Of a stretch of DNA of 64,000 bases, positions 59,599 to 61,356 are shown in pieces. Each line of letters opens with the position of its first letter. Within the stretch, counting starts at the first letter, position 1. This stretch comes from Actinobacteria bacterium IMCC26207 (GTDB lineage: Bacteria; Actinomycetota; Acidimicrobiia; Acidimicrobiales; Microtrichaceae). Made by a program: the position numbers and the translations under genes. The stretch lies in NCBI GenBank assembly GCA_001025035.1, contig LCZK01000006.1, positions 62,001 through 126,000 of the forward strand. Direction: 5' to 3'. The notes below the pieces were generated by a model that was given only the letters and a program-made list of their open reading frames with translations, was not told the origin of the DNA and ran no database searches.

Positions 59599-59838
59599 AT
59601 GGCGACAAGCGATGCGGTGGCGACTCCATCAACGCGAAGAAAATTTCTGCTGGCATCCGGGATCAGCGCGGCAGGAATGCTGGTACTCGCCAGCGGATGT
59701 GTGGCACCACCCGTTCCGCCAACAACCACCACCACAACAACAACCCCGCCGCCTGCAGGACCGAACCTGTTAGCCAACCCATCATTCGAATCTGACGTTT
59801 TTGGATCAACATTCACGAACTGGACGGTGACCCCATGA
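59599..59838 (+). CDS. Short Tat lipoprotein with truncated carbohydrate-binding-like domain, unit 1
   Basis: 79 residues from ATG 59599. Twin-arginine motif STRRKFLLASG, hydrophobic core, lipobox LASGC, then PPVPP and a Thr-rich linker. It ends NLLANPSFESDVFGSTFTNW-TVTP, which is the typical opening of CBM-like/DUF642-like beta-sandwich domains but stops after the first strands. The stop (TGA) overlaps the next start as ATGA. The rest of the domain seems to lie in the next gene, after a ubiquitin domain. Confidence 0.85.
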   Translation: MATSDAVATPSTRRKFLLASGISAAGMLVLASGCVAPPVPPTTTTTTTTPPPAGPNLLANPSFESDVFGSTFTNWTVTP

Positions 59839-60416
59839 GCGGAATGCAGATATTCGTGAAGACACAGACGGGCAAGACCATCACACTTGATGTCGAATCA
59901 AGTGACTCGATTGAAAACGTCAAACAGAAGATTCAAGACAAAGAGGGGCTAGCCCCTGACATGCAACGACTGATCTTTGCAGGGCAGAAACTCGAAGACG
60001 GTCGCACGCTGGCCGACTACACGATCTCGAAAGAAGCGACTCTTCAGCTGAGGTACCTAACCGGTGTGGTCACCTACGACCTCGTGTACACCACCGGAGC
60101 GCCGCCACTAGGAGCATCCAATCTTGCCCACCTCGCGGACGGTGCAAGCCTTGCGCAGCGGGTCACCGGCATCTCTCCAGGCGAATACGTCCTCACCTTT
60201 TACTCCTCCGGAGATATCAGTTTCGCAGTCGAATTCTTCGATTCCGCCGATGCCTCAGTCGGAGTCTCTTCAGGATCGGCGAGCAGCGCTGCTGGCGATC
60301 TTGGACCCGTCACACTCAACGTGATGGCACCAACTGGGTCTGCAAGCGCCGAGGTCAGATTCGTAGGAGTGTCCTCTTCGGTTCTACTTGACCTCGTTCA
60401 CTTCGGCATTGCCTAA
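59835..60416 (+). CDS. Ubiquitin-domain protein fused to the rest of a beta-sandwich, unit 1
   Basis: 193 residues. Residues 4-74 (59844-60056) align with eukaryotic ubiquitin without gaps at about 54 of 71 identities by hand: MQIFVKTQTGKTITLDVE, NVKQKIQDKEG, QRLIFAGQKLEDGRTLADY. Lys6, 11, 27, 29, 33 and 63 are kept; position 48 is Gln. There is no LRGG tail: the domain runs straight into TGVVTYDLVYTTGAPPLGAS and a beta-rich C-terminal part (LAQRVTGISPGEYVLTFYSS). No signal peptide, so alone it would be cytoplasmic. Confidence 0.93.
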   Translation: MSGMQIFVKTQTGKTITLDVESSDSIENVKQKIQDKEGLAPDMQRLIFAGQKLEDGRTLADYTISKEATLQLRYLTGVVTYDLVYTTGAPPLGASNLAHLADGASLAQRVTGISPGEYVLTFYSSGDISFAVEFFDSADASVGVSSGSASSAAGDLGPVTLNVMAPTGSASAEVRFVGVSSSVLLDLVHFGIA

Positions 60417-60467
60417 CTGCTCGCTCTGACCGTTTGCCACACAGGTGTCTTTGCCCACCTGGACTCC

Positions 60468-60496
60468 TTGCGCTCTCAAGCAAACTCAGGAAGACT
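60468..60496 (+). promoter_or_regulatory. Sigma-70-like promoter, unit 2
   Basis: TTGCGC (60468-60473), 17 bases, then AAGACT (60491-60496), a weaker copy of the unit 1 promoter at the same distance from its gene. Each unit may therefore be transcribed on its own. Confidence 0.4.
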
Positions 60497-60532
60497 AAGC
60501 GGTCTTTAGTCTCAACAAGGCGGGGTACTGCA

Positions 60533-60781
60533 ATGGCGACAAGCGATGCGGCGGTAGCTACATCAACGCGACGGAAATTTCTGTTGGCATCCGGGATCGG
60601 CGCGGCAGGAATGCTGGTACTCGCAAGCGGATGCGTCGCACCACCCGTTCCGCCAACAACAACGACTACCACAACAACCACGGCACCACCGCCGCCGGCA
60701 GGACCGAACCTGTTAGCCAACCCGTCCTTCGAATCTGATGTTTTTGGATCAACATTCACGAACTGGACGGTGACCGCATGA
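60533..60781 (+). CDS. Short Tat lipoprotein with truncated carbohydrate-binding-like domain, unit 2
   Basis: 82 residues, nearly the same as the unit 1 protein: STRRKFLLASG, lipobox LASGC, a slightly longer Thr/Pro linker and the same ending NPSFESDVFGSTFTNWTVT. The stop again overlaps the ubiquitin gene as ATGA. The conservation of the break point in both copies argues against a sequencing error. Confidence 0.85.
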   Translation: MATSDAAVATSTRRKFLLASGIGAAGMLVLASGCVAPPVPPTTTTTTTTTAPPPPAGPNLLANPSFESDVFGSTFTNWTVTA

Positions 60782-61356
60782 GCATGCAGATATTCGTGAA
60801 GACTTTGACGGGTAGGACGATCACCCTGGACGTCGACTCAAGTGATTCGATTGAAAACGTCAAGCAAAAGATCCAAGACAAAGAGGGACTGGTCCCTGAC
60901 ATGCAGAGACTGATCTTTGCAGGGCAAAAACTCAATGACGGTCGCACGCTCGCTGACTACAACATCCAGAAAGAATCGACCATCCAACTGAACTTGGGAA
61001 CCGGTGTGGTCACCTACGACTTGATGAACACCACGGGCGCACCACCACTTGGTGCATCAAATCTTGCCCACCTGACCGATGGTGCAAGCCTTGCGCAGCG
61101 GGTCACCGGCATCTCGCCCGGGGAGTACGTCCTCACCTTTTATTCCTCCGGAGATATCAGTTTCGCAGTCGAATTCTTCGATTCTTCGGATGCCTCAGTC
61201 GGAGTCTCATCAGGATCGGCAAGCAGCGCCGCTGGCGATCTTGGCCCCGTCACACTCAATGTGATGGCACCAACTGGGTCGGCAAGCGCCGAGGTTCGAT
61301 TCGTAGGAGTCACCTCTTCGGTCCTCCTTGACCTCGTGCACTTCGGCACCGCCTAA
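60778..61356 (+). CDS. Ubiquitin-domain protein fused to the rest of a beta-sandwich, unit 2
   Basis: 192 residues. Residues 3-73 (60784-60996) align with eukaryotic ubiquitin at about 55 of 71 positions by hand: MQIFVKTLTGRTITLDVD, KIQDKEG, QRLIFAGQKL, DYNIQKEST. It keeps Leu8 and Ile44 of the hydrophobic patch but has Asn at position 70, and no diglycine. The domain then runs into TGVVTYDLMNTTGAPPLGAS. The C-terminal part differs from unit 1 at about 6 of 118 residues, while about two dozen codons differ silently. Confidence 0.93.
   Translation: MSMQIFVKTLTGRTITLDVDSSDSIENVKQKIQDKEGLVPDMQRLIFAGQKLNDGRTLADYNIQKESTIQLNLGTGVVTYDLMNTTGAPPLGASNLAHLTDGASLAQRVTGISPGEYVLTFYSSGDISFAVEFFDSSDASVGVSSGSASSAAGDLGPVTLNVMAPTGSASAEVRFVGVTSSVLLDLVHFGTA

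Follow-up and report, generated by a model that had tools for sequence, protein, structure and literature searches.

Two tandem units, each about 0.9 kb long, occupy positions 59599-61356 on the (+) strand of the DNA stretch analysed here (64,000 nucleotides of contig LCZK01000006.1 of Actinobacteria bacterium IMCC26207, hereafter the window), and each of them consists of a short lipoprotein-like gene (N-part) followed by an overlapping gene that encodes ubiquitin and a C-terminal part (CTD). We propose, with a probability of about 0.47, that ubiquitin is exported here as a hitchhiker on the twin-arginine translocation (Tat) pathway via a domain split over two coupled genes, and that it is displayed on the cell envelope. 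According to this model, the N-part protein, bearing a predicted Tat signal and a 23-residue end motif, and the ubiquitin-CTD protein would be made as separate, coupled chains and would assemble in the cytoplasm by strand complementation into one domain resembling a carbohydrate-binding module (CBM). The folded complex would then be exported by Tat with ubiquitin as the hitchhiker, and a predicted lipid anchor (the lipobox occurs in this genus only) would keep it displayed on the envelope, where ubiquitin would serve as a non-conjugatable ligand. The split may exist so that ubiquitin keeps its native N-terminus while its partner drives export. More tentatively still, this might constitute a new design for export and display: an extracellular domain cut near its start, whose small half would provide the Tat signal (and, in this genus, the lipid anchor) and whose large half would carry the ubiquitin with a free N-terminus, strand complementation turning both into a Tat cargo that displays a non-conjugatable, near-eukaryotic ubiquitin.

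The N-part genes encode 79 (unit 1) and 82 (unit 2) amino acids, comprising, in this order, a twin-arginine motif (STRRKFLLASG), a lipobox (LASGC), a Thr/Pro linker, the motif NLLANPSFESDVFGSTFTNWTVT and the stop codon. The tail of the unit 1 protein reads NLLANPSFESDVFGSTFTNWTVTP, and the end in both units follows the pattern NLLANPSFES..NWTVT. The ubiquitin-CTD genes (193 and 192 amino acids, respectively) start with ubiquitin and continue with a part of 117 residues beginning with GVVTYDL. In both units, the stop codon of the N-part gene overlaps the start of the ubiquitin gene as ATGA. Ubiquitin was matched in Pfam with E = 3.6e-24 (unit 1) and 6.7e-26 (unit 2), and no other gene in the genome matches PF00240 at E <= 0.001. 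Both units were found in the sequence where the preliminary description had placed them, with ubiquitin located exactly at the frame break. The identity to ubiquitin, given there as 76-77% from alignment by hand, was computed as 76.4% (unit 1) and 75.0% (unit 2) to the human protein over residues 1-72.

Some relatives reach even higher identity to human ubiquitin over the same residues (up to 94%, P0198). None of 99 aligned members, many of which are near relatives, ends in Gly75-Gly76 (five of them have alignment gaps there), while G356, which is outside these 99, reads RLGGA, one residue off diglycine. Because the diglycine end is missing, conjugation is unlikely, and neither the usual E1 activation nor release by deubiquitinases would be expected. 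Residues used in ubiquitin recognition were retained to different degrees: V70 in 86 rows of the alignment, K63 in 80, L8 in 78, I44 in 64, H68 in 51 and K48 in 36. Residue 1 of ubiquitin lies at protein position 1, 3, 4 or 6 in 97 rows, the other two being without a start, and no signal peptide was found on the ubiquitin chain in those 97 rows.

Ubiquitin behind a Sec-like leader was also observed, in records assigned to Pseudomonas, Lindowbacteria, Lentisphaerae, an unnamed bacterium, Subdoligranulum and Bacteroidaceae (L011-L016). All six carry MQIFVKTQTGKT (L8Q), the same as unit 1 of the window. As judged by eye, the hydrophobic leader ends at or just before ubiquitin Met1 in each of the six, and the signal peptide of BfUbb, the ubiquitin of Bacteroides fragilis, is reported to be cleaved exactly at Met1 (PMC5705921, in excerpt). 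From this, a free ubiquitin N-terminus outside the cytoplasm looks like a shared demand, which in the units described here would be met by means of a separate partner.

The preliminary description knew of no other protein with this architecture; the unit nevertheless turned out to belong to a family. An N-part gene is present ahead in ten genomes, directly before the ubiquitin-CTD gene in seven of them (G000, G001, G002, G005, G061 at locus L010, G135 in unit 2, and G309) and before an intervening methyltransferase gene in three genomes of one genus (G273, G186 and G254). The latter group was revealed in G273 and G186 by a search with the motif pattern, which also yielded a further G254 N-part on contig 25; the G254 copy on contig 195 came to light on reading the sequence, and G210 could not be judged at its contig edge. 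The intervening gene encodes a class I methyltransferase with an MTS domain (Pfam, E 4.8e-9) and overlaps the N-part stop codon (L056:8984-9991, with equivalents in L055 and L057); its product might modify the ubiquitin. Over seven lineage representatives (for G254, both halves from contig 195), the N-part shows the consensus NLxxNPSFExGxxGATxxxWTxV, and the CTD begins with the consensus GVVTY. At 13 junctions, stop and start overlap in 11 cases and the next gene is in -1 phase in 12. Twin arginines were recognised by eye in all 12 N-part genes that do not lose their start to a contig edge, while a lipobox was seen only in the genus of the window. The twin-arginine motif thus appears to be the shared feature and the lipid anchor special to this genus. 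TatC is present in the genome. The ratio of nonsynonymous to synonymous substitution rates (dN/dS) was below 1 in every pair for which it could be computed: in five within-genus pairs, the N-part motif (24 codons) gave 0-0.10, ubiquitin 0.04-0.28 and the CTD 0.03-0.12, and in three between-lineage pairs, with synonymous sites near saturation, the values were 0.16-0.36, 0.08-0.17 (one pair saturated) and 0.24-0.55, respectively.

That the two halves form one domain is likely, not proven. In the preliminary description, the C-terminal part was said to continue as a carbohydrate-binding-like fold, and a CBM-like sandwich core is indeed predicted by Foldseek and VIA (first model, built on a shallow alignment; for the second model, the VIA matches were taken up by ubiquitin and are uninformative on the CTD) and by profile comparison with intact CBM-like repeats of G298 (E 1e-9, for that single comparison). 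These repeats start with NLLDADSSTLEG..W, and relative to them the CTD starts about 23 residues short, which is the length of the N-part motif. In a model of the ubiquitin-CTD protein without the N-part, based on a deep alignment, ubiquitin and the CTD core were predicted with confidence, while residues 76-95, i.e. the GVVTYDL stretch, had pLDDT < 50; G77 and Y81 are invariant in the 99 rows despite this low confidence. The position of the N-part, its length and its conservation, together with the poorly predicted GVVTY stretch, suggest that it would complete the domain. When N-part and CTD were joined (the G254 row of these tests and of those against G298 combining the contig 25 N-part with the contig 195 CTD), unit 1 matched TIGR04362 (E 0.021, 15.1 bits versus a curated cut-off of 120) and G186 matched CBM_4_9 end to end (E 0.038, 14.8 bits versus 25.9); neither family was reached by the CTDs alone or by four hand-made scrambles of G186. 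Against PDB 2xom, the joined profile scored best (17.5 bits, the CTD reaching 16.1 and the scrambles 14.4-14.9), and against 9fli it scored above the scrambles and below the CTD alone. The start of the N-L-L...W type, the predicted sandwich core and the closing L-D strand are shared with CBM_4_9 and choice-of-anchor C domains (PF02018, TIGR04362) and with the G298 repeats; however, those are encoded as one chain, whereas here the domain would be distributed over two genes with ubiquitin (in one genus, the methyltransferase) in between, and the scores lie below curated cut-offs.

Several observations weigh against export by a split domain and favour another explanation, namely that the ubiquitin-CTD protein acts alone in the cytoplasm, with the small gene as the remnant of a lipoprotein gene that ubiquitin insertion disrupted. 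No N-part was found in G356, and second tandem copies are without one. At L010:7775-8001, a TAG replaces the conserved Trp codon of the N-part, with the TGATG junction still present downstream. The cut-off of the NCBIfam Tat model TIGR01409 was passed by one of nine N-part proteins scanned, and five gave no match; this poor fit weakens both the export reading and the display design. The N-part also adds little in the profile tests: five of the seven joined sequences reach neither TIGR04362 nor CBM_4_9, its addition raised scores against G298 and PDB 5w6h no higher than scrambles did, and most tests gained no more than their scrambled controls. The earlier idea that the lipoprotein tail represents the missing first strands is upheld as regards its appearance, length, conservation and the recurrent split, and receives little backing from the profile tests on joined sequences (weak CBM matches across the junction in two of seven, gains mostly at scramble level); likewise, profile searches with the C-terminal part returned a CBM-type resemblance, with joined scores under the curated cut-offs. 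On the other hand, the remnant reading is opposed by the dN/dS of the N-part (0-0.36 in eight pairs), by twin arginines at each of the 12 visible starts, and by the overlap and phase kept at 11 and 12 of 13 junctions. The CTD is, moreover, predicted to be a sandwich of extracellular type, and some members carry Pro/Thr-rich tails or a fibronectin type III (fn3) match. We regard a solely cytoplasmic role as unlikely.

Export of a split domain also has to be weighed against the possibility that both frames are fused by -1 ribosomal frameshifting at the overlap, giving a single lipoprotein that carries ubiquitin as an insertion in one of its loops. The frame following the N-part is indeed -1 at all but one of the junctions; however, no X XXY YYZ heptamer was seen by eye, the junction codons vary (ACC CCA TGA, ACC GCA TGA, ACA GCA TGA), the L010 N-part ends four codons earlier, and both ubiquitin starts of the window are preceded by a Shine-Dalgarno-like GGACGG (-6.8 kcal/mol, compared to a mean of -2.5 at random positions and a median of -2.7 for 28 open reading frames of the window). 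The methyltransferase gene that separates the halves in G273, G186 and G254 argues strongly for two chains and against frameshifting, and for this reason the preliminary view of ubiquitin inserted in one domain is better replaced by that of two chains. Taken together, these points suggest separate, coupled translation; overlapping gene pairs are reported to encode subunits of a single complex frequently (PMC10666635, in excerpt). Frameshift fusion, which we consider very improbable, was dropped as a candidate on two grounds, the lack of a slippery site on inspection by eye and the three genomes in which the other half is not directly downstream. An assembly artefact or contamination with a eukaryotic ubiquitin gene is suspect a priori for ubiquitin in a bacterial metagenome-assembled genome (MAG), but two intact copies lie within a 254-kb contig, and L007 and L008 hold the same unit between the same two neighbours with many synonymous differences, which we count as refuting; the chance of such an artefact is negligible. 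Outside the cell, the ubiquitin might engage eukaryotic ubiquitin receptors as a ligand or decoy, or it might serve antagonism among bacteria. For the latter, BfUbb offers a precedent no weaker than for the host mimicry suggested in the preliminary description (PMC5705921, in excerpt). The same source reports that this bacterial ubiquitin is secreted, lacks the terminal glycine and inhibits other strains of the species that makes it. An exported ubiquitin antagonising neighbouring bacteria, rather than signalling to eukaryotes, would agree with this, with the patchy presence (four of six genomes in the genus, 8 of 397 in the order) and with the ubiquitins diverging more than the CTDs in the two tandem pairs compared (W1/W2 and L008a/b). 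Nevertheless, the predicted lipid anchor favours display over release, and much of the eukaryotic recognition surface (L8, I44, V70) is kept, for which a purely antibacterial protein has no evident use, and we consider antagonism somewhat unlikely.

Exported bacterial ubiquitin as such is already known from BfUbb, with which the proteins described here share a eukaryotic-like ubiquitin, export (predicted in our case), a free N-terminus and the loss of the last glycine (PMC5705921, PMC3352274, both in excerpt). Recombinant BfUbb was reported to bind human E1 covalently and to inhibit ubiquitination in vitro (PMC3352274). BfUbb is made with a signal peptide on the same chain and stands alone as a protein of 76 amino acids, whereas here a leaderless ubiquitin is fused to a predicted sandwich domain and the export signal would reside on a separate, co-encoded small protein. 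The Sec-leader fusions (L011-L016) are similar in that ubiquitin forms the expected start of the mature protein and is joined to a further part, and also in the L8Q exchange of unit 1; in contrast, their leader is on the same chain right before ubiquitin, and no split gene was seen. Known Tat hitchhiker partners are co-encoded, as here. The pairs HybO-HybC and PaoABC (PMC4273604) have the signal on one subunit only, as is predicted here; unlike in these, the putative signal-bearing partner here consists only of a linker and a 23-residue piece resembling the start of its partner's own domain. No description of the split partner gene, of the fusion to a GVVTY sandwich or of the actinobacterial family was found in our literature searches, in the portions of text that these returned.

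Table 1. Features of the two units (positions are those of the window)
Feature	Position	Strand	Basis
N-part gene, unit 1, 79 aa: twin-arginine signal, lipobox, Thr/Pro linker, 23-residue CBM-start-like motif	59599..59838	+	sequence; TIGR01409 Tat model 15.0 bits, cut-off 16.7
Twin-arginine motif STRRKF, unit 1	59629..59646	+	sequence
Lipobox cysteine (LASGC), unit 1	59698..59700	+	sequence; lipidation inferred
N-part motif NLLANPSFESDVFGSTFTNWTVT, unit 1	59764..59832	+	conserved across 7 lineage representatives
Internal Shine-Dalgarno-like GGACGG upstream of ubiquitin start, unit 1	59822..59827	+	anti-Shine-Dalgarno duplex -6.8 kcal/mol
ATGA stop/start overlap, unit 1	59835..59838	+	sequence
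Ubiquitin-CTD gene, unit 1, 193 aa, no N-terminal leader before ubiquitin	59835..60416	+	sequence, Pfam
Ubiquitin domain, unit 1, no diglycine	59844..60062	+	Pfam, alignment
GVVTY CTD, unit 1	60063..60413	+	homologue comparison
N-part gene, unit 2, 82 aa	60533..60781	+	TIGR01409 Tat model 17.2 bits, above cut-off 16.7
Twin arginine codons, unit 2	60569..60574	+	sequence
N-part motif, unit 2	60707..60775	+	sequence
ATGA stop/start overlap, unit 2	60778..60781	+	sequence
Ubiquitin-CTD gene, unit 2, 192 aa	60778..61356	+	sequence, Pfam
Ubiquitin domain, unit 2	60784..61002	+	Pfam, alignment
GVVTY CTD, unit 2	61003..61353	+	homologue comparison

Within the genus, PF00240 was matched in four of six genomes, the two without a match being 82% and 73% complete. 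The sister MAGs L007, L008 and L009 show the same split; L008 has two units, and in L009 the contig begins within the N-part. In L007 and L008 the flanking genes are the same as in the window, a DUF7064/7065 gene on one side and an ion-channel-like gene on the other, and L009 agrees on its one available side. The records of L007 and L009 bear the title Bifidobacterium breve, apparently a misnomer. Across the order, the CTD profile matched 11 of 397 sampled genomes, eight of them with E < 1e-30, and the ubiquitin family was also matched in all eight. In the phylum sample, the whole-protein profile matched 3 of 396 genomes, namely G000, G135 and, with a different large protein, G264. A protein search returned 227 proteins at E <= 1e-3. 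Among the 120 matches listed, the Pfam ubiquitin tag is present on 116; in the four untagged proteins (P0148, P0157, P0186, P0205), the gene call opens within the ubiquitin sequence or where it ends. Some relatives are named by NCBI as 'ubiquitin family protein' of Actinomycetota, Actinobacteria or Acidimicrobiia. A close homologue that is unsplit and free of ubiquitin, which the preliminary description had suggested looking for in related genomes, was sought and not found among the matches listed (all 16 matches of one CTD search carry the Pfam ubiquitin tag), the distant G298 repeats being the only unsplit relatives that turned up. No match was obtained in viral contigs (one scan, unit 1), plasmids (CTD) or phages (whole protein).

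Several variants were observed among the relatives. In G135 (L060, minus strand), the reading frame of the first tandem ubiquitin-CTD copy is broken within ubiquitin, and this copy is not directly preceded by an N-part gene. Ubiquitin-CTD proteins of family f53 (L055, L056, L057, L058 and L059) end with P-x-FTG right before the stop codon. In G356 (L054, minus strand), ubiquitin is followed by a CTD relative without GVVTY and by the fn3 match (E 2.5e-4, below cut-off), and the gene runs off the contig. A second ubiquitin architecture, consisting of ubiquitin, VTTDAP-type repeats, one hydrophobic segment and an RRRHI tail, occurs in the genome of L010 (L037:1495-1962, G061 contig 57) and in a relative (L040:2-394, G063); no N-terminal leader was seen in it, the start of L040 being cut. 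Finally, ubiquitin-like domains within open frames of ~1,260-1,290 amino acids in the 1.6-Mb genome G264 (L048, L053) are not of this family and possibly represent foreign DNA.

If the proposed model is correct, bacteria would export a near-eukaryotic ubiquitin by a route undescribed in the literature that we found, and a folded domain could be split over two genes, with a tiny strand donor towing its partner through Tat. Two open questions would thereby become directly testable, i.e. what purpose exported bacterial ubiquitins serve and how small a Tat tug can be.
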